Positions 25,990 through 40,136 of a stretch of 64,000 nt of DNA are shown here, piece after piece (position 1 is the first letter of the stretch; every line of letters starts with the position of its first letter). The stretch is taken from contig NZ_CP078078.1 of NCBI RefSeq assembly GCF_023101205.1, positions 248,001 through 312,000 of the forward strand, read 5' to 3'. The DNA comes from Microbacterium aurugineum. GTDB lineage: Bacteria > Actinomycetota > Actinomycetes > Actinomycetales > Microbacteriaceae. The position numbers and the translations under genes are program-made. Below the pieces are notes generated by a model. It ran no database searches. It was not told the origin of the DNA and was given only the letters and a program-made list of their open reading frames with translations.

Positions 25990-26550
25990 GTGACCGCACT
26001 CGACGCAGACCGCCAGACACTCCTCGACCTCATCAAGGATGAGGCGGTGTTCCACGGCGACTTCACCCTCTCCAGCGGCAAGCAGGCGACGTACTACGTC
26101 GACATGCGCAAGCTCACCCTGGACCACCGTGCCGCTCCCGCGATCGGCCGCATCATGCTCGACCTGATCGGCGACCTCGACGTCGTGGCGGTCGGCGGGC
26201 TGACACTCGGCGCCGACCCCATCGCGAACGCGGTGCTGCACGCGTCGGTCGCCACCGACACCCCGCTCGACGCCTTCGTCGTGCGCAAGGAGCCCAAGGA
26301 CCACGGACGCGGTCGTCAGATCGAGGGCGCAGACGTCAAGGGCAAGCGCGTCGTGGTGCTCGAAGACACCTCGACCACGGGCCAGTCCGCGCTCAAGGCC
26401 GTCGAAGCCCTGCGCAAAGAAGGCGCCGAGATCGTCGCGGTCGCCGTGATCGTCGACCGGAAGACCGGCGCACAGGCCGCGATCGAAGCCGAGGGCCTGG
26501 AATGGCGCGCGGCTTTCGACCTCGACGACCTCGGGCTCGACCCCCAGTGA
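25990..26550 (+). CDS. pyrE: Orotate phosphoribosyltransferase
   Basis: 186 aa. It joins orotate and PRPP to make OMP in pyrimidine synthesis. Seen: GDFTLSSGKQATYYVDMRKL, VGGLTLGADPIANAV and the PRPP loop VVLEDTSTTGQSALKAVEAL, with the actinobacterial EDTSTTGQS form. I prefer the GTG at 25990 to the one at 25969: a TACACT box (25977-25982) lies 7 bases before it, so the mRNA would start at the codon itself, and the longer version would include the promoter. The stop overlaps the start of the ROK kinase gene by 4 bases. Confidence 0.93.
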   Translation: MTALDADRQTLLDLIKDEAVFHGDFTLSSGKQATYYVDMRKLTLDHRAAPAIGRIMLDLIGDLDVVAVGGLTLGADPIANAVLHASVATDTPLDAFVVRKEPKDHGRGRQIEGADVKGKRVVVLEDTSTTGQSALKAVEALRKEGAEIVAVAVIVDRKTGAQAAIEAEGLEWRAAFDLDDLGLDPQ

Positions 26551-27449
26551 CGCGCTACGCGCTCGCCGTCGATGTGGGCGGCACGAAGATGGAGGCCGCG
26601 CTCGTCGCGGAGGACGGCCGACTGCTCCCGGGGAGTCGCAGTCGCCAGCCGACCGGTCGGGACGCCACGTTCGAGTCTCTGGACGCGGCCGTCGTCGCGA
26701 TCGTCGAGCACGCGCTCGCCGCGCTTCCGGCCGACGCGGAGCTCGTCGGTGCGGGTATCGGCAGTGCCGGTCCCGTCGACCGCTCCCTCGGCGCGATCAT
26801 GCCGGTGAACATGCCGCTCGCGCGCGGCTTCGTCCTGGAAGAGGCGGTCCGCGCTGCGGCGTCCACCGTCCTCGGGGGCGACGTGCGCACCGTGCTCGGC
26901 CACGACGGCGGTGCTCTCGCGCTCGCGGAATCGTGGCTCGGCGCCACGCAGGGCGCCGGCGCCTCGCTGTCGATCGTGGTCTCGACCGGTGTCGGCGGCG
27001 GCTTCGTCGCGAACGGCGCCTACATTCCCGGAGCCACCGGCAATGCCGGTCACCTCGGTCAGGTGCGTCGCGAGGGCGGCCTGACGCTCGAGGAGATCGC
27101 CTCGGGTCCCGCGAGCGCCGCGTGGGCCCAGCAACAGGGGTGGACCGGCGCCACCGGCGAAGACCTCGCGCGGGACGCGGCGGCCGGCGATCCCCTCGCG
27201 CGGGCGGCGATCGAGCGTTCGGCCCGCGAGGTGGGGGAGGCGCTGGCGGATGCCGCGACCCTCGTCGACCTCGACGTGGTCGCCATCGGCGGCGGATTCT
27301 CGCGAGTGTCGTCGGACTACATCGACCTCGTGCAGCAGGCACTCACCGCGAGCGCGGCCCACGAGTACTCGCGCCGTACCCGCGTCGTGCGCTCGGGGCT
27401 CGGCGACGAAGGGCCGCTCATCGGCGCCGCTGCTCTCGTGCTCCGGTAG
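26547..27449 (+). CDS. ROK-family sugar kinase-like protein
   Basis: 300 aa. ASKHA fold: phosphate-1 motif AVDVGGTKMEAALV at the N-terminus, GAGIGSAGPVDR, the catalytic-loop region GHDGGALALAESWLG, and STGVGGGFVANGAYIPG with NAGHLGQ. The zinc motif CxCGxxGCLE of classical ROK proteins is missing; the segment reads LTLEEIASGPAS instead. There is no N-terminal helix-turn-helix, so it is a kinase rather than a repressor. Glucose, N-acetylglucosamine or N-acetylmannosamine are the usual substrates. The GTG start overlaps the pyrE stop (GTGA), so it is translationally coupled to pyrE. Confidence 0.88.
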   Translation: MTRYALAVDVGGTKMEAALVAEDGRLLPGSRSRQPTGRDATFESLDAAVVAIVEHALAALPADAELVGAGIGSAGPVDRSLGAIMPVNMPLARGFVLEEAVRAAASTVLGGDVRTVLGHDGGALALAESWLGATQGAGASLSIVVSTGVGGGFVANGAYIPGATGNAGHLGQVRREGGLTLEEIASGPASAAWAQQQGWTGATGEDLARDAAAGDPLARAAIERSAREVGEALADAATLVDLDVVAIGGGFSRVSSDYIDLVQQALTASAAHEYSRRTRVVRSGLGDEGPLIGAAALVLR

Positions 27450-27988: not shown

Positions 27989-29134
27989 TCAGCGTACGGA
28001 AGCCCGACGAGGGGAACGTGCGGCGACCAGCATCAGCACCGGGATGAGCGCGCACAGCCCGGCGGACACGAGGAACGTCGCACTCGATGCCGGATCCCGA
28101 CCGATCAGGAGGATCACCGTCGGCACGAACGTCCCCCCGACGGCCCCGCAGGCGACGAGCGCGCCGGTCACCGCAGCGCTGCGCGCGGGGTCGAGACGAT
28201 CGAGGGCGAGTCCCAGGATGAGGCCGTAGCTGGGTGCGAGGAGGACGACCACGGCGGCCAGCCCGCCGAGCGCCACTTCCGGCGCGGACTCCACCAGTAT
28301 CCCCGCGGTCGCCATCAGGACCGCCGCGGCACCCGTCGCGGACACGAGGATCACGATCGGTGGGACGGAGAGGCGGCGCAGTCCCGCCGCGCTGAACCGT
28401 CCGACGGCCATGAGCGTCCAGAACGCCGAGGTCCCCAGCGCGGCGAGGCCCGGATCGACCGCGAGGATCCGCTCCGGGATCACCGCCGACCACCCGGAGA
28501 GCACGGTCTCGACGCCGACGTACAGGGGGAGTGCGACGGCGAAGGGAAGGAGCGCGAGCAGCCCGCGAACGTCCCGATGCGCGGGAGTCTCGGCGGGGGA
28601 GGTCGGGGCCGCCGGTCCCGCGAGCATCGCCAGAGCCAGGAGCGGCACGATCGCCAGGATGCCGAGCAGCGGGCGCGTTCCGGACCCCACGGCGACGAGC
28701 AGGGGCGTGACCGCGGCGCACACCGCGACCGTGCCGAGCAGAGCGCTGAGCAGCCCCGTCGCGCTGCCGGCGGCCACGGACTTCGCCGCCACGGATCCCG
28801 AGGCCTCCACCAGCCCGAACCCGAATCCGGCGACGGCGGCCGCGGCGATGAACATGGCGGGGGCGTCTGCCACGGCCACGGCGATGATCGCCACGGCTTG
28901 GAGGGCACTGCCGAGCATCAGCGTGGTGCGCGGTGGACGGCGCATCAACAGCGGGCCCGAGCTCAGGACTCCGACCAAGAGCCCGCCGAAGAGGGCGGGG
29001 ACCGCGGCGCTGAGGTCGGTCGCCATCGCGCGTTCGGTGGAGGGCAGGACCGCGGGGACGAAGGCGGCCGTGACCCCGAGGCCCGCGAAGGCGGTGAACA
29101 GCCCCGCTCGCGCTCGCCGGGTGCGGGCGGTCAC
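27989..29134 (-). CDS. MFS transporter, 12 TM
   Basis: 381 aa with about 12 membrane spans and short loops. There is no long N- or C-terminal tail. The acidic-basic pattern between spans 2 and 3 (LLMRRPPRTTLML) fits the MFS loop motif A in reduced form. It lies downstream of an RpiR-type regulator gene and overlaps it by 4 bases, and the pair is divergent from the muropeptide ABC operon. Transport of a recycled wall sugar or amino sugar is therefore a reasonable guess, but the protein itself does not show it. The 121 bases downstream (27868-27988) hold nothing I can identify. Confidence 0.85.
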   Translation of the reverse strand: MTARTRRARAGLFTAFAGLGVTAAFVPAVLPSTERAMATDLSAAVPALFGGLLVGVLSSGPLLMRRPPRTTLMLGSALQAVAIIAVAVADAPAMFIAAAAVAGFGFGLVEASGSVAAKSVAAGSATGLLSALLGTVAVCAAVTPLLVAVGSGTRPLLGILAIVPLLALAMLAGPAAPTSPAETPAHRDVRGLLALLPFAVALPLYVGVETVLSGWSAVIPERILAVDPGLAALGTSAFWTLMAVGRFSAAGLRRLSVPPIVILVSATGAAAVLMATAGILVESAPEVALGGLAAVVVLLAPSYGLILGLALDRLDPARSAAVTGALVACGAVGGTFVPTVILLIGRDPASSATFLVSAGLCALIPVLMLVAARSPRRASVR

Positions 29135-30033
29135 GCCCCCGTCTTCCGCACGCGGTGGACGGCGGCGAAGGTGTCGCGCAGAGCCTCCATCGAGCGGTCG
29201 TAGTTCGACTGTGCGACGCCGATGAAGATGCAGTCGACCACCATCAGCTGGGCGATCCGGCTGCCGAGGGCACCCGACCGGAAGCCGGTCTCGCGCGCGG
29301 CGGTCGTCAGGACGATGTCCGCCTGGTCGGCCAGTGGAGCGCCGGCATGGTTCGTGATCGCGATCGTCGTCGCCCCGGTCTGGCGGGCGAGCAGCAGGAA
29401 CTCGATCGTGTCGGTCGTGGTGCCGGTGTGCGACACCGCGATCGCGACGTTGCCGGGGCCGAGCGTCGCCGCCGAGGTCCAGGCGGCATGCGGGTCGGAC
29501 CAGTCCAGTGCCGTGCGCCCGATCCGGGTGAGCTTGCGCTGCAGGTCGAGGCCGACGATGGAGCTCGCACCCACACCGAAGATGTCGACCCTGGTCGAGG
29601 ACGTGATGGCGTCGACGGAAGCGCGCAGTGACTCCGTGTCGAGCACCTTGGCGGTGTCCGCGAGCGAGAGGGTCTCGGCCAGCGACACCTTCGCGACGAT
29701 GTCGGACAGCGTGTCGTTGCGGTCGATGTCGCCGGAGACGGCGGGGAGCGCGGCCGTGTCGAACGTCTCGCGTTCGACGTCGCGCAGCACGTGGTTGCGC
29801 AGCTCGCGCACGTGCTCGTAGCCGAGTCGCTTGCAGAACCTCACCACCGAGGTGGTCGAGGTGTCGCAGCGCTGGGCGAGTTCGGCTATGGAGAGTCCGG
29901 CGGTCCCCGCCGGATCGGAGAGGAAGAGGTCGGCGATGCGCTGCTCGCTCGGACGCAGCTCGGGACGGATCGCACGCATGCGGACGAGCACGGGGTGTGC
30001 GCCGGCATCATCGCGGGCGGCTTCGTGGGGCAT
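29131..30033 (-). CDS. RpiR-family regulator with SIS domain (MurR-like)
   Basis: 300 aa. Residues ~10-85 are the RpiR helix-turn-helix (LRPSEQRIADLFLSDP, SIAELAQRCDTSTTSVVRFC). Residues ~130-265 are a sugar-isomerase (SIS) domain that binds phosphosugars (VDIFGVGASSIVGLDLQRKL, VSHTGTTTDTIEFLLLA). E. coli MurR has the same layout and senses MurNAc-6-phosphate. Here the gene is divergent from an operon carrying murQ and anmK, whose intermediate is MurNAc-6-phosphate, so the same role is likely. GGAG lies 5 bases before the ATG. An inverted repeat 22 bases upstream is the obvious operator candidate. Confidence 0.9.
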   Translation of the reverse strand: MPHEAARDDAGAHPVLVRMRAIRPELRPSEQRIADLFLSDPAGTAGLSIAELAQRCDTSTTSVVRFCKRLGYEHVRELRNHVLRDVERETFDTAALPAVSGDIDRNDTLSDIVAKVSLAETLSLADTAKVLDTESLRASVDAITSSTRVDIFGVGASSIVGLDLQRKLTRIGRTALDWSDPHAAWTSAATLGPGNVAIAVSHTGTTTDTIEFLLLARQTGATTIAITNHAGAPLADQADIVLTTAARETGFRSGALGSRIAQLMVVDCIFIGVAQSNYDRSMEALRDTFAAVHRVRKTGA

Positions 30034-30054
30034 AGGGTCTCCGATCGCTGTTCA

Positions 30055-30109
30055 TAACAGTAGAGGAACTTCTGTTACATCAGTAGTGTCTGTCGTGTAC
30101 TTTTAGTAC
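30055..30109. promoter_or_regulatory. Operator candidates in the RpiR / ABC operon divergent region
   Basis: TAACAG (30055-30060) and CTGTTA (30072-30077) form a perfect inverted repeat with 11 bases between arms. GTAC-TTTTA-GTAC follows at 30097-30109. The 164-base gap separates the RpiR gene from the substrate-binding protein gene and is markedly more AT-rich than its surroundings. RpiR binding is inferred from position only. Confidence 0.5.
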
Positions 30110-30197
30110 CAACCCAGACCGACGATGTTCGCGGGCGGCAGGCGACAGAGCCTGACCCGACGCCACGGCGACGCGTCCCAGCCAGGAGGAATCAGCA

Positions 30198-31742
30198 ATG
30201 AGCACAGCACGGCGGGCGTCATTCGGCGCTCTCACAGCCACGGGTGTCGCTTTGGCGCTCGTGATCACCGGTTGTTCCGCACCCGCGTCCGACACCCCGT
30301 CGACGGGTGAGGCCGGCGGTGACCTCGTCATCGGCGTCACGAGCGATCCCGACACGCTCTTCCCCTGGAAGGCGACGCAGTTCCAGGCCGTCAACGTCCT
30401 GCAGAACCTGTACGGCACGCTGACCGAGTTCGATGAGGACCTCAACGTGGTCCCCGGCCTCGCCGAGTCGTGGGACGTCTCGGAAGACGGTCTCACCGTG
30501 ACCTTCCACCTGCGCGAGGGCGTCACCTACGCGGACGGCAGCACCTTCGGCTCCGAAGACGTCAAGTACTCTCTCGACGCCATCGCCGCCGAGGAGACGG
30601 CGGCCGTCGCAGCGAGCTCTCTCGCCTCCGTCACCGCGGTCGAGGCCACCGACGAGAACACCGTCACCCTCACCCTGAGCGCGCCCGACGCCGCGCTTCC
30701 CGCGAACCTCGCCGTGATCAACATGGCGATGCTCTCCTCGGACGACACCGAAGAGGGGCTGAACACCACGCCCAACGGCACCGGTCCCTTCATCCTCGAC
30801 GACCGCAAGGCGAGCCAGTCGATCACGCTGGCGAAGAACGAGGACTACTGGGGCGACGCGGCGCTGCTCGACACGGTCGAGTTCCGGGTGATCCCCGACG
30901 AGTCGTCGATCGTGTCGGCGATGCAGTCCGGCAACGTGCAGCTGGCCGTCTTCGACGACCCGCTGGTCGCACAGACCGCCGAGGGCGCGAACGTCGAGGT
31001 CGCCACGACCCCGCAGCTGAGCTACCACGCGCTGCAGCTGAACGCCACGCGCGGTGACCTGACCGACGTCAACGTGCGACTCGCGATGCAGTGCGCGATC
31101 GACCGCCAGGAGGTGCTCGACACGGCAGCTCTCGGCGAGGGCGAAGTCACCGGTCCCATCACCTCTCCCGCGTACAAGTCCGACCCCGAGGCGCGTCCGT
31201 GCCCCGAGCGTGATCTCGACAAGGCCGCCGAGTACCTGAAGAAGGCGGGCAAGGAGGACGGCGTCACCGTCAAGACGATCGTCTCCCAGGGTGAGTACGC
31301 GACGTCGGTGAACGAGGCCCAGAACCTCAAGGCGCAGCTGGCCGACGCGAACATCACGCTCGACCTCGAGGTGCTCGAGTCCGGCGCGTTCGTCGATCGC
31401 TGGATCGCAGCCGACTTCGACGCCGCCGTCGCCCTCAACGGCGGTCGTCCCGACCCCGACGGCATGTACGGCCGCTACTTCACCAGCACCGGAAACCTGA
31501 ACAAGGTCGCCGGATACTCCTCGCCCGAGCTCGACGCGCTCTTCGCCGAGGGTCGCCAGACGGCCGACCCGGAGAAGCGCAAGGACATCTACGCGCAGGT
31601 CTCCGAGAACCTCGAGGACAACGCCGCGTGGATCTGGCTGTTCACGAGCTACACCTACACCGCGACCTCCTCGACCGTCGACGGCTTCGTCCCGATGGCG
31701 AACGGCTCGCTGCAGTACCTGCGGACTACCTCCATCAAGTAG
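30198..31742 (+). CDS. ABC transporter substrate-binding lipoprotein (peptide family 5)
   Basis: 514 aa. The signal peptide ends in a lipobox, LVITGC, with the lipidated Cys at residue 26, so the protein is anchored on the outer face of the membrane. The rest is a family-5 (oligopeptide/dipeptide) binding protein: TSDPDTLFPW-type opening after the linker, VTFHLREGVTYADGSTFGSE, and YHALQLNATRGDLTDVNVRL. Relatives such as MppA and OppA bind peptides including wall peptides. As the first gene of an operon with MurQ, AnmK and a dipeptide epimerase, muropeptides or free murein peptides are the likely cargo. AGGAGG precedes the ATG by 9 bases. Confidence 0.92.
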   Translation: MSTARRASFGALTATGVALALVITGCSAPASDTPSTGEAGGDLVIGVTSDPDTLFPWKATQFQAVNVLQNLYGTLTEFDEDLNVVPGLAESWDVSEDGLTVTFHLREGVTYADGSTFGSEDVKYSLDAIAAEETAAVAASSLASVTAVEATDENTVTLTLSAPDAALPANLAVINMAMLSSDDTEEGLNTTPNGTGPFILDDRKASQSITLAKNEDYWGDAALLDTVEFRVIPDESSIVSAMQSGNVQLAVFDDPLVAQTAEGANVEVATTPQLSYHALQLNATRGDLTDVNVRLAMQCAIDRQEVLDTAALGEGEVTGPITSPAYKSDPEARPCPERDLDKAAEYLKKAGKEDGVTVKTIVSQGEYATSVNEAQNLKAQLADANITLDLEVLESGAFVDRWIAADFDAAVALNGGRPDPDGMYGRYFTSTGNLNKVAGYSSPELDALFAEGRQTADPEKRKDIYAQVSENLEDNAAWIWLFTSYTYTATSSTVDGFVPMANGSLQYLRTTSIK

Positions 31743-31748
31743 CGGATC

Positions 31749-31779
31749 GGAGGGGGCGCGGCCACCCCGCGCCCCCTCC
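31749..31779 (+). terminator. GC-rich hairpin between binding-protein and permease genes
   Basis: GGAGGGGGCGCGG (31749-31761) and CCGCGCCCCCTCC (31767-31779) are perfect 13-base arms with a 5-base loop, 7 bases after the stop. No T-run follows. In ABC operons such structures protect the upstream message or stop part of the polymerases, giving excess binding protein over permeases. Confidence 0.75.
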
Positions 31780-31809
31780 CTCCCCGACGACAGGCACCCC
31801 CACACGCGC

Positions 31810-32781
31810 ATGTTCAGACAGCTCCTCCGCAACAGCGTGCTGCGACGCATCGTCGCCGCACTCGGCACGCTCCTCGGCGTCGCCATCTTCGTCTTCCTGA
31901 TGCTGCGGGCCATCCCCGGCGATCAGATCAGCTCCGGCCTCGGCACGGAGGCGGCCGCCCTCACGCCGTCGCAACGCGCAGCCCTCGAGGCCTACTACGG
32001 GCTCGACCAGCCGCTCTTCGTGCAGTTCTTCTCCTGGTTGGGCAACATCTTCACCGGAAACCTCGGGTTCTCCTCTCGGGCACAGACGAGCGTCCTCGAT
32101 CTCACCGCCGCCGCTCTTCCCGTCACCTTCGAGCTCGCGATCTTCTCGATCGTGATCGCCCTGGCCATCGGCATCCCCCTCGGAATGCTCTCCGCCTCGA
32201 AGCCCGACTCGTTCCGCGACGGCGTCGGACAGGTCGTCGGCCTCGCCGGTCTCTCGATCCCCGCGTTCCTGCTCGGGACGGCGCTCCTGGCGATCCTCGC
32301 CTCCTCGTTCGGCTTCAACCCGAACGGTCAGGCCTACGCCACGCTGTTCGAGGACCCGCTGCTGAACCTCCAGCAGATGCTGCTGCCCTCGATCGTGCTC
32401 GGCTTCGGCATCGCCGCGCCGATCATGCGCACGACCCGCACCGCGGTGCTCGAGATCCGCGCCAACGACTTCATCCGCACGGCCAGGGCGAAGGGCGTCC
32501 CGCCGCGGCGGCTGCAGGTGCGTCACGTGCTCGGCAACGCCCTGGTTCCCATCGTCACGATGACCGGCCTGCAGTTCGGCTACCTCCTCGGCGGCGCCGT
32601 GGTGGTGGAGCAGATCTTCTCGCTCCCCGGCATCGGGCGACAGGTGCTCCTCGGCATCCAGCAGAAGGAATACGCACTCGTGCAGAGCACCGTCCTCGTG
32701 ATCGCGCTCGCCTTCGTCATCGTCAACCTGCTCACCGACCTGCTCTACCGGGTCATCGATCCTCGGGTGCGTGCCGCATGA
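31810..32781 (+). CDS. Peptide ABC transporter permease (DppB type)
   Basis: 323 aa, six membrane spans. Seen: the N-terminal VAIFVFLMLRAIPGD segment typical of DppB/OppB, a long first extracytoplasmic loop, and the cytoplasmic EAA loop (VLEIRANDFIRTARAKGVPP) that contacts the ATPase, followed by ALVPIVTMTGLQFGYLLGGA. It forms the membrane channel with the DppC-type subunit encoded next, overlapping by 4 bases. No good ribosome site is seen before the ATG, and the preceding hairpin lies 30 bases upstream, so lower translation than for the binding protein is likely. Confidence 0.93.
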   Translation: MFRQLLRNSVLRRIVAALGTLLGVAIFVFLMLRAIPGDQISSGLGTEAAALTPSQRAALEAYYGLDQPLFVQFFSWLGNIFTGNLGFSSRAQTSVLDLTAAALPVTFELAIFSIVIALAIGIPLGMLSASKPDSFRDGVGQVVGLAGLSIPAFLLGTALLAILASSFGFNPNGQAYATLFEDPLLNLQQMLLPSIVLGFGIAAPIMRTTRTAVLEIRANDFIRTARAKGVPPRRLQVRHVLGNALVPIVTMTGLQFGYLLGGAVVVEQIFSLPGIGRQVLLGIQQKEYALVQSTVLVIALAFVIVNLLTDLLYRVIDPRVRAA

Positions 32782-33665
32782 CCGACATCTCTCAGACTCC
32801 GACCCTCGCCCCCGGCGGCGGGCGCAGCATGGAGCGCGTGCGTCTCCTGCTGCGCAGTCGCAGTGGACTCACGGGCCTCATCATCGTCGTCCTGCTCGCG
32901 GTGCTGAGCCTCGTCTCGGCGTTCGGGCTGCTGCCGTTCGACCCGCTTGCGCAGGATCCGCCGTCCCGCCTGCAGCCGCCGTCCGCCGTGCACTGGTTCG
33001 GCACCGATCAGTTCGGTCGCGACGTGTTCTCCCGCGTGGCCGCCGGTGTCGCCAACTCGGCGCTGATCTCGGTGGTCGCGGTGGCCTTCGCCACCGTCGT
33101 CGGAACCGTGTGCGGACTCATCGCCGGCTTCTACCGCGGCATCTCCGACGGCGCGATCACGGCGGTCACCAACGTGCTGTTCGCGTTCCCTCCGCTGCTG
33201 CTGGCCCTGTCGCTCGCGTCGGTGTTCGACCGCAACTGGTTCACCATCGCCGTGGCCATCGCGATCGTGTACGTGCCGATCTTCATCCGCGTCACCCGCG
33301 GACCCGTGCTGTCGCTGCGCGAGGTCGAGTACGTCAAGGCGGCCAAGAGCACGGGTCAGAGTCGCATGGCGACCATGTTCCGGCACGTGCTGCCGAACAT
33401 CACGTCGATCATCATCGTGCAGGTCACGCTCTCCCTGTCGTGGGCCGTGCTCACCGAGGCCTCGCTGAGCTTCCTCGGTCTCGGCACGCCGCCGCCCGCC
33501 CCATCGCTCGGCTCGATGATCTTCGAGGCGCGCACGCTCGTGACGATCGCGCCGTGGACGATGATCGCGCCCGGTGTGATCGTGGTGCTCCTCGTCGTCG
33601 GCCTGAACCTGCTCGGTGACGGGCTGCGCGACAGTCTCGACCCCCGGAACAGAGGAAAGCGATGA
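32778..33665 (+). CDS. Peptide ABC transporter permease (DppC type)
   Basis: 295 aa, six membrane spans. Typical DppC features are present: HWFGTDQFGRDVFSRVAAG after the first span, and the EAA loop VEYVKAAKSTGQSRMATMF. It ends in the charged tail LDPRNRGKR. It pairs with the DppB-type subunit; start and stop overlap both neighbours by 4 bases (ATGA), so it is translated together with the permease before it and MurQ after it. Confidence 0.93.
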   Translation: MTDISQTPTLAPGGGRSMERVRLLLRSRSGLTGLIIVVLLAVLSLVSAFGLLPFDPLAQDPPSRLQPPSAVHWFGTDQFGRDVFSRVAAGVANSALISVVAVAFATVVGTVCGLIAGFYRGISDGAITAVTNVLFAFPPLLLALSLASVFDRNWFTIAVAIAIVYVPIFIRVTRGPVLSLREVEYVKAAKSTGQSRMATMFRHVLPNITSIIIVQVTLSLSWAVLTEASLSFLGLGTPPPAPSLGSMIFEARTLVTIAPWTMIAPGVIVVLLVVGLNLLGDGLRDSLDPRNRGKR

Positions 33666-34567
33666 CCCGGGAGGATCTCGGCGGGCTGGCCACGGAAGCC
33701 AGCGATCCGCGCTATGCGGAACTCGACCTGATGAGCGTGGCGGAACTCGCGCAGACCATGAACGAGGCGGACGCCACCGTGCCCGCCGCGGTGCAGCGCG
33801 CCCTGCCGCAGATCGTGCCCGCCATCGAGGAGACGGCCGCTCGCATGGCGCAGGGTGGCCGCCTGGTCTACGTCGGCGCGGGAACCCCCGGACGCATCGG
33901 TGTGCTCGACGCCTCGGAGTGCCCGCCCACGTTCAGCACGCCGCCGGAGCTCGTCTTCGCGATCATGGCCGGGGGCCCCGGCGCGATCGTGAACCCCGTC
34001 GAGGGTGCGGAGGATGACGCGGACGCGGGTGCTGCAGCGATCGACGCGGCCGGCATCGGTCCGCTCGACACCGTGATCGGCATCGCCTCCAGCGGACGCA
34101 CGCCCTATGTGATCGCGGCCGTCCGCCGTGCGCGCGAGCTCGGAGCGCTCAGCATCGGTCTCTCGTGCAATGTCGGCACCGCGCTCAGTGCCGCGGCGGA
34201 GCACGGGATCGAGGTCGAGGTCGGCCCCGAGGTGCTCTCCGGCTCGACGCGGCTCAAGTCGGGCACGGCCCAGAAGCTCGTGCTGAACATGTTCTCGACC
34301 ATCTCGATGGTGCGAAACGGCAAGGCGTACGGCAACCTGATGGTGGATGTGAAGGCCACCAACCACAAGCTGCGTGAGCGGGCCATCCGGATGGTGCAGA
34401 CCATCGCGGCGGTCGACCGGGACGCGGCGCTGGCCGCTCTGGAATCGGCCGCCTACGACGTGAAGCTCGCGTCGATCATGATCCGCCGCGGGGAGGATCT
34501 CCCGGCGGCGACCGCACGACTGCATGCCGCCGACGGCCGGCTGCGCACCGCACTGGAGGAGAACTGA
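33662..34567 (+). CDS. murQ: N-acetylmuramic acid 6-phosphate etherase
   Basis: 301 aa. It splits the D-lactyl ether of MurNAc-6-phosphate to give GlcNAc-6-phosphate and D-lactate, the central step of cytoplasmic wall recycling. SIS fold with both catalytic glutamates in place: E86 in DASECPPTFS and E114 in NPVEGAEDD. Other family blocks: SGRTPYVIAAVRRARE, GPEVLSGSTRLKSGTAQKL and NLMVDVKATNHKLRERA. Length is as usual for MurQ. In Microbacterium the muramic acid is often N-glycolylated, so this enzyme may have to accept the glycolyl form; that is inference. It overlaps the permease gene by 4 bases and anmK by 1. Confidence 0.96.
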   Translation: MTREDLGGLATEASDPRYAELDLMSVAELAQTMNEADATVPAAVQRALPQIVPAIEETAARMAQGGRLVYVGAGTPGRIGVLDASECPPTFSTPPELVFAIMAGGPGAIVNPVEGAEDDADAGAAAIDAAGIGPLDTVIGIASSGRTPYVIAAVRRARELGALSIGLSCNVGTALSAAAEHGIEVEVGPEVLSGSTRLKSGTAQKLVLNMFSTISMVRNGKAYGNLMVDVKATNHKLRERAIRMVQTIAAVDRDAALAALESAAYDVKLASIMIRRGEDLPAATARLHAADGRLRTALEEN

Positions 34568-35757
34568 TGCGCGTCCTCGGACTGATCTCCGGCACCTCGC
34601 ACGACGGGATCGATGCCGCCGTCGTCGACTTCACGACCAGTGGCGGCTTCACCGCGCACGGCGTGGACCTGCGCGGCACGGTGCTCGCGGCGATGAGTGT
34701 GCCGTATACCCCCGAACTGCGGTCGCGGCTGATCGCGGCGCTGCCGCCGGCGCAGACGACGCTCGCCGAAGTCGCGGAGCTCGACACGCTCATCGGTCAG
34801 GCATTCGCCGACGTCGCGGCCGACATCGCCGCAGAAGTGGGGGGCATCGACGCGGTCTGCTCGCACGGACAGACCGTGTACCACTGGGTCGACGGCGCGC
34901 ACGCGCGGGGCACCCTGCAGATCGGGCAGCCCGCCTGGATCGCGGAGAAGGTGGGTGCCCCCGTGGTCTCCGACATCCGCATCCGCGACATCACCGTCGG
35001 TGGCCACGGTGCGCCGCTGGTGTCGTTCCTCGATGAGCTGCTGCTGCGCTCACGCGCCGGGGTGTCCGCCGCCCTGAACCTGGGCGGCATCTCGAACATG
35101 ACGGTGGTGCGGCAGGACGGCCTGGTCGCCTACGACATCGGCCCCGCGAACGCACTCGTCGACGCGGTCATCGTGGAGCACGACCTCAACCCGCTCGGCT
35201 ACGACGACGACGCCGCGATCGCCCGCACCGGGCAGGTCGACGAGACGCTGCTGGCCGCTCTGCTCGAAGACCCCTACTACGCGCTCACCCCGCCCAAGAG
35301 CACGGGCAAGGAACACTTCCACCTCGGCTACGTGCACGAGCACCTCGCCGCGCAGGGGCGCGAGATCGCGGTGGCGGATGTCGTGCGGACACTGACCGAG
35401 CTCACCGTCCGCACGGTCGCACGCGACGTGGAGGCCGCGGGCATCGGGTTCCTCGCCGTGTCGGGCGGCGGCTGCCGCAACCCGCTGATCCTCGATGGAC
35501 TGCGCGCCGCCCTGCCCGCGACCGAGGTCGTGCTGGCCGACGAACTGGGGGCTGCGGCCGACAGCAAGGAGGCGATCCTCCTCGCCCTGATCGGCTGGTC
35601 CACGATGCACGGCGTCCCCGCGATCGTCCCGGGCGGCACCGGTGCTCGCGAGCCGCGCATCCTGGGCACGATCACCCCGGGCGTCGGTCCGCTGCAGATG
35701 CCGGAACCCGTCGCCGCCATCGACTCCCTCGTGCTCACGGAGGCCGCGACATCGTGA
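34567..35757 (+). CDS. anmK: Anhydro-N-acetylmuramic acid kinase
   Basis: 396 aa. It opens the 1,6-anhydro ring of anhMurNAc and phosphorylates it with ATP to MurNAc-6-phosphate, which feeds MurQ. Seen: GLISGTSHDGIDAAVVDF (ATP phosphate loop, here SGTSHDG in place of SGTSLDG), LNLGGISNMTVV, DIGPANALVDAVI and VSGGGCRNPLIL. The substrate arises from lytic transglycosylase or Rpf-like activity on murein, so the operon can use anhydro-muropeptides. The ATG shares one base with the murQ stop. Adjacent murQ and anmK make the pathway assignment strong. Confidence 0.95.
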   Translation: MRVLGLISGTSHDGIDAAVVDFTTSGGFTAHGVDLRGTVLAAMSVPYTPELRSRLIAALPPAQTTLAEVAELDTLIGQAFADVAADIAAEVGGIDAVCSHGQTVYHWVDGAHARGTLQIGQPAWIAEKVGAPVVSDIRIRDITVGGHGAPLVSFLDELLLRSRAGVSAALNLGGISNMTVVRQDGLVAYDIGPANALVDAVIVEHDLNPLGYDDDAAIARTGQVDETLLAALLEDPYYALTPPKSTGKEHFHLGYVHEHLAAQGREIAVADVVRTLTELTVRTVARDVEAAGIGFLAVSGGGCRNPLILDGLRAALPATEVVLADELGAAADSKEAILLALIGWSTMHGVPAIVPGGTGAREPRILGTITPGVGPLQMPEPVAAIDSLVLTEAATS

Positions 35758-36257
35758 CCCTCCAGGTGCGCCCCGCCACCCCGGACGACCTGTCCGGGGT
35801 GCTCGAGGTGTTCCTCGCCTGCTGGCGGGAGAGCTACCGTGGCGTCCTCCCCGATGCGGCGATCGACGCCATGACCGACGCGCGCGCGGAGACGCTGTGG
35901 CGGCGGGTGCTCTCCGACCCGGTGGGCATCGTGCTCGTGGCCGAGCGGGACGGCGGGATCGTCGGGATCACCCGGTACGCGGCGACGTCGAACACCGACG
36001 GGCGGATCGACGGGGCCGTGCACTCCCTGTATGTGTCGCCGCGTGCTCACGGCGGCGGCATCGGCGGAGCGTTGCTGACGTGGGCGACGGCAGAGCTGCG
36101 GGAGGCCGGGGCCGAAGCCGCGACACTGTGGGTGTTCGCAGCGAATGCGCCGTCGATCGGTTTCTACGAGGCGAAGGGCTGGCATCCGGATGGGGCCACC
36201 CGCACGCAGCCGGAGTTCGGCGAGCCCGAGCAGCGCATGCGCAAGGAGTGGACATGA
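35754..36257 (+). CDS. GNAT-family N-acetyltransferase
   Basis: 167 aa. Acetyl-CoA-dependent transferase fold: LQVRPATPDDLSGVLEVFLA at the N-terminus, SLYVSPRAHGGGIGGALLTW as the acetyl-CoA phosphate loop (R-x-x-G-x-G/A variant), and FYEAKGWHPDG near the end. The substrate is unknown. Its place inside the muropeptide operon, coupled by a 4-base overlap (GTGA) to anmK and to the epimerase, suggests it acetylates an amino group of a wall-derived sugar, amino acid or peptide, for instance lysine, ornithine or a free glucosamine. That is inference from context. Confidence 0.88.
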   Translation: MTLQVRPATPDDLSGVLEVFLACWRESYRGVLPDAAIDAMTDARAETLWRRVLSDPVGIVLVAERDGGIVGITRYAATSNTDGRIDGAVHSLYVSPRAHGGGIGGALLTWATAELREAGAEAATLWVFAANAPSIGFYEAKGWHPDGATRTQPEFGEPEQRMRKEWT

Positions 36258-37429
36258 GCGCCGTGGTGCGTCTGCGCCTGCTCCGGGTGTCGTCCCCGCT
36301 GGTGCGCCCGTTCATCACGGCCGTGCGGCAGACGGACCGTCTCGACGTCGTGCTGGTCGAGGCGACCGATGCGGAGGGGCGCCGAGGATACGGGGAAGCC
36401 GCCACGAGCTGGCGTGTCACGGGGGAGAGTCCGCAGAGCGTCGCCGCCGCGGTCGCAGGTCCGCTCGCCGACGCCGTGCTCGGTCGCGATGCCGGCGACG
36501 CCGGGCTCCCGGGGGACATCGCGCGGTCGATCTGGGGCAATGCGGCCGCCCGCAGCGCTGTCGAGTGCGCGGTCGCCGATCTCGCCGCCCAGCAGCGGGA
36601 GGTCTCGCTCGTGGCCGACCTGTCTCGCGCGCACGCGGTGCACAACTCCTCACGAACGTCGCACGTCCGCACCGACATGACCCTGTCCGTGGGAGAGCCG
36701 CAGGCGGTGGCGACGCTTTCTGAGGAGTACGTCACCGCAGGCTTCGGCTGCCTCAAGCTCAAGGCCTCGGCCGCGCACGACATCGTGGCCGCGCTACGGG
36801 CCGTCCGTGCGGCTGTCGGGCCCCACATCACCCTGCGCATCGACGCGAACCAGGCCTGGGACGCCGAGACCGCGATCCGCGTGATCCGTACCGCCGAGGA
36901 CGCGGATCTCGGGCTCGAACTCGTCGAGCAGCCGGTCGCCGCCCACGACCTCGACGCGCTCGCCGCGGTGACGGCGGCCGTCGACACCCCGATCATGGCG
37001 GACGAGTCGGTGCGGACGGCCGAGGACGTGCGCGTGATCGCCGATCGGGGAGCCGCCGCCCTCGTGAACATCAAGCTCGCCAAGACGGGCGGTCCGGCCG
37101 AGGCGATCGCTGCCGCGGAGGCCGCACGAGAGGCGGGGCTGGGGGTCGTGATCGGCTGCATGATGGAGTCCCACGTCGGAGTGAGTGCCGCAGCCCACCT
37201 CGCAGCGGCCGTCGCCCCCGATGTCGTGCACGACCTGGACGCGGCGTCCTGGCTGCGTCGCTCGCCCGTGGTGGGTGGGGTCGCCCCGTCCGGTGAGGTG
37301 CTGACGCTCGGGGCGGGCACGGGGCTGGGCATCCTGGGGCTCGCATCCGACGCACAGACCGACATCCTCCTCGACCTCGACCGCGACCTCGATCGCGACC
37401 TCGGCCGCGGTGCGGAGGTGCGCGTATGA
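36254..37429 (+). CDS. Dipeptide epimerase (L-Ala-D/L-Glu type, enolase superfamily)
   Basis: 391 aa. It probably converts L-Ala-D-Glu from murein to L-Ala-L-Glu so that ordinary peptidases can use it. Enolase-superfamily active site is complete: K168-L-K170 (CLKLKA), metal ligands in RIDANQAWD, LELVEQPV and MADES, the opposite Lys in NIKLAKTGG, and the dipeptide-specificity segment HDLDAASWL near the end, as in YcjG-type epimerases. The C-terminus carries a short DLDRD repeat. The ATG at 36254 overlaps the GNAT stop by 4 bases; the longer frame starting further upstream is an artefact. Confidence 0.92.
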   Translation: MSAVVRLRLLRVSSPLVRPFITAVRQTDRLDVVLVEATDAEGRRGYGEAATSWRVTGESPQSVAAAVAGPLADAVLGRDAGDAGLPGDIARSIWGNAAARSAVECAVADLAAQQREVSLVADLSRAHAVHNSSRTSHVRTDMTLSVGEPQAVATLSEEYVTAGFGCLKLKASAAHDIVAALRAVRAAVGPHITLRIDANQAWDAETAIRVIRTAEDADLGLELVEQPVAAHDLDALAAVTAAVDTPIMADESVRTAEDVRVIADRGAAALVNIKLAKTGGPAEAIAAAEAAREAGLGVVIGCMMESHVGVSAAAHLAAAVAPDVVHDLDAASWLRRSPVVGGVAPSGEVLTLGAGTGLGILGLASDAQTDILLDLDRDLDRDLGRGAEVRV

Positions 37430-38511
37430 CCGCCGCCGCCGCCGTCGCCGCCGTCCTCGGGATGGAGTCCGCCCCGCGCGGAGTCGTCGCGGGCGTCGTG
37501 ACCGAGGCGGGACGTGAGGTCGCGGCCAGCGGCCTGGCCGACCTCGCCGGAACCCCGATGACCACCGAGACCGCGTTCGACATCGCCTCGGTCTCGAAGG
37601 TCGCGGCGACGACGACAGCGATCCTCAGACTGGTCAGCCGGGGCGACCTGCGCTTCGATGATCCGGTCGACCGCTTCGTCTCCGGGACCGCGTGCGCTCC
37701 GGGAACGACCGTGCGCCACCTCCTGCAGCACCGCGCCGGCCTGTGGGAGTGGCAGCCTCTCTACCTCGACCGTGAGCACGCCGGCGACCCCGACGCCGCG
37801 GCGGACGCGATCCCGCTGCGATACGCCCTCGACGACGCCCGCCACTACTCCGACCTCGGCTTCATGCTCCTGGGCCGCATCGTCGCGGCGGTCACCGGGT
37901 TGCCTCTGGACGCCGCCGTCCGCGAGCTCGTCACCGCGCCCCTCGGCCTGGATCGCACGGCATACGGACCCGCCGGTCGGCCCGTCGCCTCGTCCGCGAT
38001 CGGTGACGTCGCCGAACGCCGCATGGTCGCCACGGGGGAGCCCTACCCGATCCTCACCGCGGCGCGGGACTTCACCTGGCGCGAGGAGGAGATCACCGGC
38101 GTCGTGAACGACGGCAACTGCTTCCATGCTCTCGGTGGCGTCTCCGGCCACGCGGGGCTGTTCAGCACCGCGACCGACCTGCTGACCTTGGGGGCGGCGC
38201 TCGCCGCGCCCGAGCGCCATCCCGCGCTGTGGGGCCCGGACGACGTCGCCGAGCTCTTCCGCGACGGACCGGATGCCGGACAGGCGCTGGGGTGGCGCAG
38301 CGACACGGTCGCCGTCGCCGGCCGGCCGACCCGCGTGCTCTGGCACCCCGGCTTCACGGGCTGTGCCCTCGGGATCGTCCCGAACACCGGCACCGCCGCG
38401 GTGCTGCTGAGCACCCGCCTCTTCGCCCCCGAACCCGCACCGACCGAGGCGCTCTGGCGCACGGTGCTCCCCGCCCTCCTGGACGACAACGAAGGAACGA
38501 GAACATCATGA
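37426..38511 (+). CDS. Serine hydrolase of beta-lactamase class C fold (YbbE/AmlB-like)
   Basis: 361 aa. SxxK nucleophile motif SVSK in TAFDIASVSKVAAT (about S58), YSD in place of the usual Y-x-N (HYSDLGFMLLG), and GVSGHAGLFSTATDLL as the third element. The GHAGLFST form is characteristic of YbbE-like proteins found with NagZ/NamZ muropeptide recycling genes in Bacillus and Bacteroidetes. No signal peptide is seen, so it should act in the cytoplasm, possibly as an amidase or esterase on muropeptides. It overlaps both neighbours by 4 bases. Confidence 0.88.
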   Translation: MTAAAAVAAVLGMESAPRGVVAGVVTEAGREVAASGLADLAGTPMTTETAFDIASVSKVAATTTAILRLVSRGDLRFDDPVDRFVSGTACAPGTTVRHLLQHRAGLWEWQPLYLDREHAGDPDAAADAIPLRYALDDARHYSDLGFMLLGRIVAAVTGLPLDAAVRELVTAPLGLDRTAYGPAGRPVASSAIGDVAERRMVATGEPYPILTAARDFTWREEEITGVVNDGNCFHALGGVSGHAGLFSTATDLLTLGAALAAPERHPALWGPDDVAELFRDGPDAGQALGWRSDTVAVAGRPTRVLWHPGFTGCALGIVPNTGTAAVLLSTRLFAPEPAPTEALWRTVLPALLDDNEGTRTS

Positions 38512-40136
38512 GCATCACCGAGCCCGTGCTGAGCATCAGCGGTCTCGCCGTCGCCTTCCGGACCGGTTCCGAGCTGGTCACCGCGATCAGCGACGTCAAC
38601 ATCGACATCGCCGCCGGTGAGACCGTCGCGGTCGTGGGCGAGTCGGGATCGGGCAAGTCGACCACCGCCGCGGCCGTCAACCGCCTGCTGCCGGAGAACG
38701 GCTCGATCACGGCCGGGAGCATCCGCTTCGACGGGCGCGAGTTGACCGATCTGCCCGAGAACGCGATGATCTCGCTGCGCGGCGCGGGGATCGGTCTCGT
38801 GCCGCAGGATCCGATGTCGAACCTCAACCCGCTCATGCGTGTGGGCGAGCAGATCGGCGAGGCCCTCGAGGTGCACGGTCACACCCACGGAGAGGCCACG
38901 AAGGCCCGGGTCGTCGAGCTTCTGGAGATGGTGGGGATCGCGGACGCCGCCCAGCGCGCTCACCAGTACCCGCACGAGTTCTCCGGAGGTATGCGGCAGC
39001 GCGTGCTGATCGCGATGGGCCTCGCCTGCAAGCCGCGCCTGCTCATCGCCGACGAGCCCACCTCCGCTCTCGACGTGACGGTCCAGCGGCGCATCCTCGA
39101 CCAGCTCGACACGCTCACGGATGAGCTCGGCACCGCGGTCTTCCTGATCACCCACGACCTGGCCCTCGCCGCCGAGCGCGCCGACCGCATCGTCGTCATG
39201 TTCCGTGGCCGGGTGGTGGAGGAGGGGACGTCCGCCCAGGTCCTCGGCGCCCCGCAGCACGAGTACACCAAGCAACTGCTCGCCGCGGCGCCCAGCCTCG
39301 CGTCCCGCCGGGATGCCCTGCCGCAGCGCGAGGCCGCCACGGGCACTCCGTTCGTGGAGATCCGTGGCCTCCGCAAGGAGTTCGCACTCCGCGCTCCCAA
39401 AGCGGGGGAACCGCAGACGTTCACCGCGGTCGACGGGGTGAGCTTCGAGATCCGGCGGGGCACCACGGTGTCGATCGTGGGGGAGTCGGGGTCCGGCAAG
39501 TCGACCACCGCGAACATGGTGCTCGGGCTCGAAGACGCCACGTCGGGATCGATCCTGTTCGACGGGCTCGACCTGACCACTCTCCGTCGCAAGGAGCTGT
39601 TCGCCCTGCGCCGTCGGGTGCAGCCCGTCTTCCAGAACCCCTACGCCTCACTCGACCCCCGCTACACCGTCGAGCAGTCGATCGCCGAGCCGCTGCGTGT
39701 CCACCGCATCGGCACGACGGCGTCCCGCAAGGCACGGGTGCTCGAGCTGCTGGAACAGGTCGCCCTCCCCGCGGCGATGGCCGAGCGTCTGCCCCACGAG
39801 CTGTCGGGCGGACAGCGTCAGCGCGTCGCGATCGCCCGCGCCCTGGCGCTCGAGCCCGAACTCGTGGTGCTCGACGAAGCGGTGTCGGCGCTCGACGTGC
39901 TGGTGCAGGCGCAGATCCTCGATCTGCTCGCCGACCTGCAGAAGCGCCTGGGCCTGAGCTACCTGTTCATCAGCCACGATCTCGCCGTCGTGCGGATGAT
40001 CTCCGACGAGGTGCACGTCATGCAGCGCGGTGTCGTGGTGGAGAGCGGCACGCCGGAGCGCATCTTCGACGACCCGCAGCATCCGTACACGCGGGAACTG
40101 CTCGCCGCGATCCCCGGGGCGTCGCTGGCGTCCTGA
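38508..40136 (+). CDS. Peptide ABC transporter ATPase, two fused domains (DppD-DppF)
   Basis: 542 aa holding two complete ATPase domains. Domain 1 (~1-265): Walker A VGESGSGKST near residue 44, signature FSGGMRQRVLIAM, Walker B LLIADEPTSALD. Domain 2 (~285-542): VGESGSGKSTTANMVLG near 325, LSGGQRQRVAIARAL, LVVLDEAVSALD. Both carry the Opp/Dpp-specific loops, such as VFQNPYASLDPRYTVEQS. It drives the DppB/DppC-type channel of this operon. The ATG overlaps the serine hydrolase stop by 4 bases. It ends the operon; a complex palindrome follows at 40140-40248. Confidence 0.95.
   Translation: MSITEPVLSISGLAVAFRTGSELVTAISDVNIDIAAGETVAVVGESGSGKSTTAAAVNRLLPENGSITAGSIRFDGRELTDLPENAMISLRGAGIGLVPQDPMSNLNPLMRVGEQIGEALEVHGHTHGEATKARVVELLEMVGIADAAQRAHQYPHEFSGGMRQRVLIAMGLACKPRLLIADEPTSALDVTVQRRILDQLDTLTDELGTAVFLITHDLALAAERADRIVVMFRGRVVEEGTSAQVLGAPQHEYTKQLLAAAPSLASRRDALPQREAATGTPFVEIRGLRKEFALRAPKAGEPQTFTAVDGVSFEIRRGTTVSIVGESGSGKSTTANMVLGLEDATSGSILFDGLDLTTLRRKELFALRRRVQPVFQNPYASLDPRYTVEQSIAEPLRVHRIGTTASRKARVLELLEQVALPAAMAERLPHELSGGQRQRVAIARALALEPELVVLDEAVSALDVLVQAQILDLLADLQKRLGLSYLFISHDLAVVRMISDEVHVMQRGVVVESGTPERIFDDPQHPYTRELLAAIPGASLAS

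Follow-up and report, generated by a model that had tools for sequence, protein, structure and literature searches.

A conserved operon of Microbacterium aurugineum and other actinobacteria that probably salvages 1,6-anhydromuropeptides through ABC import

Import of anhydromuropeptides by an ABC transporter has been described for YejBEF-YepA of Agrobacterium tumefaciens; YepA is encoded apart from the transporter and is called unique to Alphaproteobacteria, and MurNAc is routed via MupP, AmgK, and MurU (PMC9790009). In Bacillus subtilis, which has the cluster murQ-murR-murP-amiE-nagZ-ybbC, NagZ and AmiE are reported to act outside the cell and MurNAc to enter via the MurP phosphotransferase system (PTS) (PMC5061867). 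Two papers describe MurQ-dependent recycling in Streptomyces coelicolor (SCO4305-4308) and Mycobacterium smegmatis and report MurP orthologs missing from both (PMC5061867, PMC13041923); the M. smegmatis paper refers to an "unknown transporter" (PMC13041923).

The locus described here lies in a window of 64,000 nucleotides of M. aurugineum (contig NZ_CP078078.1, positions 248,001 to 312,000) and is made of parts of known kinds, whose combination in a single actinobacterial operon may be new. As in YejBEF-YepA, a peptide-type substrate-binding protein (SBP) and an ABC importer with a single ATPase gene would feed AnmK (PMC9790009). In contrast to Agrobacterium, the transporter, an amidase candidate, AnmK, and MurQ form one operon in Microbacterium. 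The B. subtilis cluster shares MurQ, a MurR-type regulator, and a PF00144 hydrolase of the AmiE family (PMC5061867), whereas in Microbacterium AnmK and an ABC transporter stand in for MurP, and the hydrolase appears to be intracellular. The murR-murQ-murP-yfeW stretch of Escherichia coli resembles the locus in its divergent MurR-type gene (31% identity), MurQ (47%), and PF00144 protein (30% to PBP4B/YfeW), but it has the MurP PTS instead of an ABC transporter and contains no anmK. The MppA/Opp and ycjG-mpaA systems of E. coli also offer parallels, with ABC import of a wall fragment and a dipeptide epimerase, but MppA carries a free tripeptide and has an Asp that is missing from the SBPs of the operon. 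With S. coelicolor and M. smegmatis the likeness is actinobacterial recycling dependent on MurQ (PMC5061867, PMC13041923). In the literature searched, mostly titles and the starts of abstracts with few subscription journals, we found no description of an actinobacterial ABC-AnmK-MurQ operon. The proposal that ABC entry is a distinct design gives way to the Agrobacterium precedent, and what may be new is limited to the dedicated form, with a single operon in actinobacteria. The features of the locus are as follows.

27989..29134, minus strand: MFS transporter, 381 amino acids, overlapping rpiR by 4 bases (PF07690, 34.8 bits; cut-off, 33.4)
29131..30033, minus strand: RpiR/MurR-type regulator with profile matches to HTH_6 and SIS
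30068..30109, plus strand: candidate operator, ACTTCTGTTAC (30068-30078) and ACTTTTAGTAC (30099-30109)
30198..31742, plus strand: substrate-binding lipoprotein of the SBP_bac_5 family (PF00496, 290 bits; lipobox)
31810..32781, plus strand: ABC permease B (PF00528 and PF19300)
32778..33665, plus strand: ABC permease C (PF00528)
33662..34567, plus strand: MurQ, MurNAc-6-phosphate etherase (TIGR00274, 351 bits)
34567..35757, plus strand: AnmK, 1,6-anhydroMurNAc kinase (PF03702, 346 bits; PRK09585.2-6, 512 bits)
35754..36257, plus strand: GNAT acetyltransferase, accessory (PF00583, 57 bits)
36254..37429, plus strand: dipeptide epimerase-like enolase-superfamily protein, accessory (best solved relative, 1jpm)
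37426..38511, plus strand: PF00144 serine hydrolase, candidate cytoplasmic N-acetylmuramoyl-L-alanine amidase, AmiE/YbbE-like (166 bits)
38508..40136, plus strand: fused double ABC ATPase (two ABC_tran stretches, 225 bits)

The nine plus-strand genes run head to tail from 30198 to 40136 and are tightly packed, with a gap of 67 bp between the SBP and permease B genes followed by junctions of -4, -4, -1, -4, -4, -4, and -4 bp. Our recomputed coordinates agree with the preliminary description, which had reported overlaps of 1 or 4 bases at seven junctions and a divergent rpiR, and profile searches agreed with the families that it gave to all ten genes. The MFS gene was missing from its gene list. 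MurQ and AnmK both exceeded the cut-offs of their curated equivalog models (351.2 versus 302 bits for TIGR00274 and 512 versus 440 bits for PRK09585.2-6), and AnmK was the sole match in its own genome. The GTSxDG loop residues G9, T10, S11, D13, and G14 of AnmK and the Asp of its DxGP motif (D190) were invariant in all 12 aligned proteins. The earlier reading of the locus as a peptidoglycan-salvage operon with MurQ, AnmK, and a peptide-type ABC importer was supported, and the set is conserved as a unit. Gene content, order, families, recurrence, and, for the families searched, the genome-wide complement are established.

The regulator had been called MurR-like, which its position and its identity to E. 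coli MurR bear out, but the MurR equivalog model was not reached (PRK15482.1, 134.7 versus 408 bits). It probably senses MurNAc-6-P. The candidate operator is a direct repeat found by eye, with its two copies 31 bp apart; GTACTTTT occurred in 38 of 54 rpiR-SBP intergenic regions and was absent as such from those of Nonomuraea, while GTACTTTTNGTAC had a single perfect match in the genome, at the candidate operator. An inverted-repeat search over the 54 intergenic regions gave no shared palindrome, and the direct repeat pointed to no wider regulon (one perfect match and one with a mismatch, versus 4 control matches).

We hold with moderate confidence that the operon salvages 1,6-anhydromuropeptides as a self-contained unit, working through ABC import, an internal amidase, AnmK, and MurQ; every biochemical step in this Microbacterium is one that we infer. 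Lytic transglycosylases would free wall fragments, and a secreted NagZ-like GH3 enzyme may trim GlcNAc outside the cell. The lipoprotein would then bind the remaining anhydroMurNAc-peptide, and the Opp-type transporter would bring it in with the peptide still attached. Inside, the AmiE-like hydrolase would cleave the lactyl-peptide amide, AnmK would yield MurNAc-6-P, and MurQ would convert this to GlcNAc-6-P and D-lactate, with the next step taken by NagA encoded elsewhere. The epimerase, where present, may process the freed Xaa-D-Glu dipeptide.

Conservation of the gene order, which had been proposed as a check, was found across families: among 80 named anmK loci, the best of 546 found, 43 carried transporter and anmK together, in several actinobacterial families. 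These 43 loci contained rpiR (43), the ATPase (42), the hydrolase (41; it was not found in the other two), murQ (38), GNAT (31), and the epimerase (19), and the last two are thus optional accessories of the unit. Absence of murQ from syntenic operons had been named as an observation that would speak against the proposal; it was indeed absent from 5 of the 43, but each of these five genomes has an over-cut-off MurQ elsewhere. In its own taxonomic family the unit was present in this genome and at 11 of 31 AnmK loci, and 1 of 15 phylum-level loci (L102, in a genome of another class) had the same gene set, reordered. Flanking genes were shared less widely by the 55 operon loci, four of which are second copies of genomes already counted (pyrE, 19; HAD, 19; ROK, 20). 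Recurrence of the unit across families, while its flanking genes do not travel along, suggests that the gene order is more than chance. The MFS gene is operon-associated: a homolog was found in 33 of the 55 loci (30 of 51 without the four duplicate genomes), behind rpiR on the same strand in 27 of the 33 and elsewhere on the opposite strand in 6, and in none of 38 loci without the transporter, although at two of these 38, L113 and L175, the operon is truncated where its contig stops. It had no PDB relative at E<=1. In many Microbacterium genomes anmK is retained at the same chromosomal site without the rest of the unit, which may behave as a cassette that sometimes lacks its transporter part while anmK remains.

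The preliminary description had called the operon complete, which proved too strong: GNAT and the epimerase are optional, and the hexosaminidase and NagA candidates are encoded elsewhere. A search of the rest of the genome for NagZ, NamZ, amidase, and NagA, as it had recommended, was partly successful. NamZ (the product of ybbC in B. subtilis) is encoded elsewhere, and a NagA candidate just missed its equivalog model (222.5 versus 225.65 bits). One of the GH3 proteins (there are five others) is NagZ-like, with a signal-peptide-like start; it scored 126 bits against PRK05337 (cut-off, 207) and carries KHFPGHGxxxxDSH, the hallmark motif of NagZ. The profile search for amidases covered the AmpD-type Amidase_2 family and gave no match, and an Rpf-type enzyme was not found in this genome. 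Of two BadF-type kinases of the genome considered as MurNAc kinases, one (L207) has no adjacent murQ and the other (L208) adjoins a second murQ. L040, another anmK locus, has a BadF kinase together with permeases that look sugar-type by eye. The unit could serve mainly for feeding on the walls of other bacteria instead of recycling its own, which we regard as somewhat unlikely and which is compatible with the other readings. Microbacterium strains in one study had N-glycolylated murein and D-Orn (PMC10757982), which would fit such a diet, as would the patchy epimerase and the variable presence of the transporter part at one chromosomal site. Sequence does not separate self from foreign substrate, however, and the genome encodes its own YceG/MltG protein, of a family able to make anhydro ends.

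Profile searches identified the importer parts of the YejBEF-YepA type (a family 5 SBP, two Opp-type permeases, and a double ATPase), and the peptide-type ABC importer first proposed is part of the conserved unit. A lipobox pattern was present in all 55 operon SBPs. OppA, DppA, MppA, and DdpA carry an Asp at the position corresponding to D445 of OppA and D436 of DppA, and no operon SBP, including that of M. aurugineum, had one at or beside it (Arg in 49 of 55 in a first alignment; Gly in 53 and Leu in 2 in a wider one; Asp in neither). Its absence is expected if the N terminus of the ligand is blocked by lactate. However, GsiB, NikA, and YejA of E. coli likewise lack the Asp, as do five of six nonoperon actinobacterial SBPs, the sixth being gapped there (nine controls were listed, of which three are operon orthologs, and two of the remaining six are murQ-linked Nonomuraea SBPs). 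These controls weaken the argument, as the missing Asp does not single out muropeptides, and anhydroMurNAc-peptides are the substrate we predict. A transporter restricted to free wall peptides, as with MppA and Opp in E. coli, with anhydroMurNAc reaching AnmK through another permease such as the linked MFS protein, seems improbable to us. The peptide family of the SBP and the epimerase-like gene are in line with it, the product of the latter having 1jpm, the B. subtilis L-Ala-D/L-Glu epimerase, as its best solved relative (209 bits) and 35% identity to E. coli YcjG, although it fell below both epimerase equivalog cut-offs (141 versus 500 and 138 versus 343 bits). However, 24 of 43 operons keep AnmK and have no epimerase, the SBPs are without the Asp common to OppA, DppA, and MppA, and a cytoplasmic amidase would be left without a substrate.

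The preliminary description had placed no amidase in the window. The PF00144 hydrolase, which belongs to the same Pfam family as B. subtilis AmiE (YbbE), described as a MurNAc-L-Ala amidase, is a candidate for this enzyme inside the operon. Its SxxK, YSD, and HxG motifs were invariant in 14 of 14 aligned proteins, and regular expressions over 52 hydrolases matched SxxK in 51, YSD in 52, and the narrower HxGFxG in 37. The score against the PBP4B model was far below the cut-off (103 versus 385 bits), and database names are mostly just "serine hydrolase" or similar. A cytoplasmic location is suggested by the short N terminus, with the catalytic Ser at residue 55 (40 to 86 over 14 proteins; 102 in YfeW); by hydropathy, exported proteins could not be told from the others. 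If the peptide were instead removed outside, the transporter would carry peptide-free anhydroMurNAc or its disaccharide and the hydrolase would have another role, as an esterase or D-aminopeptidase. PF00144 is indeed broad, with PDB relatives of the hydrolase that are mostly esterases, peptidases, and beta-lactamases, and, as nickel- and glutathione-binding relatives show, family 5 extends beyond ordinary peptides. Still, we find this account doubtful, slightly more so than transport of free peptides: the hydrolase is retained in nearly all of the 43 operons and adjoins anmK and murQ even in L094 and L098, loci without this transporter, and there is no sugar-type binding protein here, unlike at L040 with its sugar-type permeases.

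That AnmK phosphorylates another, levoglucosan-like 1,6-anhydro sugar in an operon unrelated to peptidoglycan is very improbable. Levoglucosan kinase does score highest among its solved relatives (197 bits, versus 172 for AnmK), but that identity was rejected on a score 72 bits above the AnmK cut-off and on gene context, murQ being linked in 38 of the 43 loci.

Salvage of anhydroMurNAc-peptides through this unit would have consequences beyond M. aurugineum. We give about even weight to the broader proposal that several actinobacterial families have a dedicated importer for intact anhydroMurNAc-peptides, whose amide is cut inside by a cytoplasmic, beta-lactamase-like member of the AmiE family. 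If true, this would invert the Bacillus scheme, in which digestion takes place outside and bare MurNAc enters by the PTS, and would extend muropeptide ABC import beyond Alphaproteobacteria. It would also place in wall salvage a protein that databases mostly leave with a generic name, and supply a candidate wall-sugar transporter, so far unidentified, for Gram-positive bacteria without MurP. The operon, joining ABC importer, AnmK, MurQ, and amidase candidate, is a concrete and testable gene set.

The genome is a single contig of 3.63 Mb, with the window at G000:C1:248001-312000, and profile and sequence matches recovered all ten genes named in the preliminary description, in the families stated there. 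The junctions also were as described: one gap of 67 bp is followed by seven overlaps, of which six span 4 bases and one a single base. The AnmK shares 99% identity with the protein from Microbacterium sp. CBA3102 and 95 to 96% with those in three of the four records titled M. oxydans (the fourth holds a 75% relative), and the hydrolase is 98% identical to a protein named for Microbacterium oxydans; these identities point to Microbacterium as the genus.

The operon holds up as a genuine, coherent unit that recurs. Conservation of the gene order had been put forward as a check; the substrate-binding protein (SBP), permB, permC, and anmK occur together in 43 of the best 80 named-genome loci, out of at least 546 AnmK relatives. 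Beside them, rpiR was found in 43/43, the ATPase in 42/43, the hydrolase in 41/43, and murQ in 38/43, with GNAT (31/43) and the epimerase (19/43) as accessory genes. These loci cover Microbacterium, Agromyces, Mycetocola, Cryobacterium, Lumbricidophila, Propionibacteriaceae, Nonomuraea, Sphaerisporangium, [Actinomadura] parvosata, Phytoactinopolyspora, and unclassified metagenome-assembled genomes. MurQ scored over the cut-off in all eight genomes checked, five of which have murQ-less operons. In L177 (Microbacterium sp. Se63.02b), the matches to anmK and to the hydrolase are both split in two, which may reflect broken genes, misassembly, or sequencing errors. The transporter was not seen in 28 of the other 37 named loci, each holding at least 15 kb; the remaining 9 are short, and among them L113 and L175 are operons cut by a contig end.

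AnmK is sparse in the taxonomic family (32/299 genomes; one match, with an E value of 5.6e-4 over 90 residues, was left out as not AnmK), and it was found in 18/396 phylum genomes, including one match in two pieces and a weak one (9e-5) that is not among the phylum loci retrieved. The SBP, both permeases, murQ, anmK, and rpiR occur together in 11 of 31 family anmK loci; 10 of these 11 have the hydrolase, the exception being L060, where a contig ends inside the locus, and in L058 the ATPase gene sits on the other side. Among the other 20 family loci, anmK accompanies murQ and rpiR in 16, murQ without rpiR in L038, and rpiR without murQ in L045, and it stands alone in L051; L049 shows none of these genes, and the L064 cluster includes an MFS gene. 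In one family member (L040:9166-13060), a BadF-type kinase, murQ, and rpiR accompany anmK, and frames upstream look by eye like sugar-type permeases; L069 resembles this arrangement. In the phylum, murQ lies close to anmK in 10 of 15 loci. L102 carries the same set reordered (rpiR, murQ, SBP, both permeases, two ATPase genes, anmK, and a divergent hydrolase), and L094 and L098 carry murQ, anmK, and the hydrolase without this transporter.

The transporter part varies from locus to locus, whereas anmK persists: Microbacterium loci lacking the operon still have anmK in the same place, flanked by the exoA/pyrE/ROK genes and a HAD gene, and L117 retains rpiR, murQ, and anmK only. Among 38 transporter-less anmK loci, HAD flanks 34 and pyrE flanks 30. 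Several Microbacterium loci (L118, L127, L133, L144, L154, and others) have anmK without the transporter, mostly at the same chromosomal site, and the ROK-family kinase near the operon (window 26502-27449) occurs at the Microbacterium site whether or not the operon is there. An additional gene adjoins the regulator, and its homologs were searched for over the operon loci:

27989-29134, MFS gene sharing 4 bases with rpiR

A homolog was present in 33 of 55 operon loci (the 43 of the named set plus 12 others), or 30/51 once four duplicate genomes were removed; it lies directly behind rpiR in 27 and elsewhere, on the opposite strand, in 6. None was found in the 38 anmK loci without the transporter.

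In OppA and DppA, an Asp binds the alpha-amino group of the ligand. This Asp is seen in OppA, DppA, MppA, and DdpA and is missing from the window SBP, and 0 of 55 operon SBPs have an Asp at or beside that column. Judged by sequence, its absence would count against no more than an OppA-like mode of peptide binding, because GsiB, NikA, YejA, and other actinobacterial SBPs (five of six, the sixth having a gap) lack it too. According to PMC9790009, Agrobacterium imports anhydromuropeptides by YejBEF with YepA, which makes a muropeptide role of the operon transporter plausible; given that system, the distinct design suggested earlier represents no new principle. Anhydromuropeptides can be inferred with good reason to be the transport substrate. 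In this organism the natural substrate may carry N-glycolyl groups, because the Microbacterium strains in PMC10757982 have D-Orn and N-glycolylated murein. Recycling through MurQ has been shown in S. coelicolor (PMC5061867) and M. smegmatis (PMC13041923).

The amidase had been described as not in the window. Amidase_2 had no match in the genome (the same search matched 6/14 control genomes), and the PF00144 hydrolase in the window is a candidate. The B. subtilis gene ybbE corresponds to amiE, which encodes a MurNAc-L-alanine amidase (PMC5061867), and AmiE is tabled under PF00144 (PMC10653849). The window hydrolase belongs to PF00144, and SxxK, YSD, and HxG are kept in 14/14 aligned relatives. 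Its best curated model is PBP4B, far under the cut-off (103 versus 385 bits); in E. coli the PBP4B/YfeW gene adjoins murQP, and the window hydrolase is 30% identical to YfeW. We propose this hydrolase as the amidase of the operon. The N terminus is short (Ser at 55 versus 102 in YfeW), which suggests a cytoplasmic enzyme; a hydropathy scan did not separate exported from other proteins.

Other pathway members lie elsewhere in the genome. NamZ, noted earlier as outside the window, was found at C1:3502891; it has no obvious signal peptide, and its locus (L072:9823-16709) includes GNAT genes, a family-1 sugar SBP, permease-like frames (by eye), and a PIG-L protein, possibly a second wall-sugar import route. 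A NagA-like protein beside a GH20 scored 222.5 bits, just below the cut-off, and among six GH3 matches the one closely examined (C1:1411576) has a NagZ-type motif but falls below the NagZ cut-off. This GH3 is small, with a signal-peptide-like start; another (L004) lies beside an RpiR gene. A YceG/MltG protein is encoded in the genome, and Rpf was not found there. At L208:8170-10980, a second murQ (51% identical and over the cut-off) accompanies a BadF-type kinase, which may resemble Clostridium MurK, and a divergent RpiR gene; this locus would serve for MurNAc and the operon for its anhydro counterpart. Nonomuraea (L199 to L202) has a second, different Dpp-type ABC transporter, whose neighbors are murQ, a divergent NamZ, and a PF00144 hydrolase.

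Overall, we regard the whole model, in which anhydroMurNAc-peptides would be imported by the ABC transporter and processed by an internal amidase, AnmK, and MurQ, as somewhat probable, with the amidase evidence behind this confidence covering the PF00144 and Amidase_2 families. The case for a place of the operon in wall salvage is strong.
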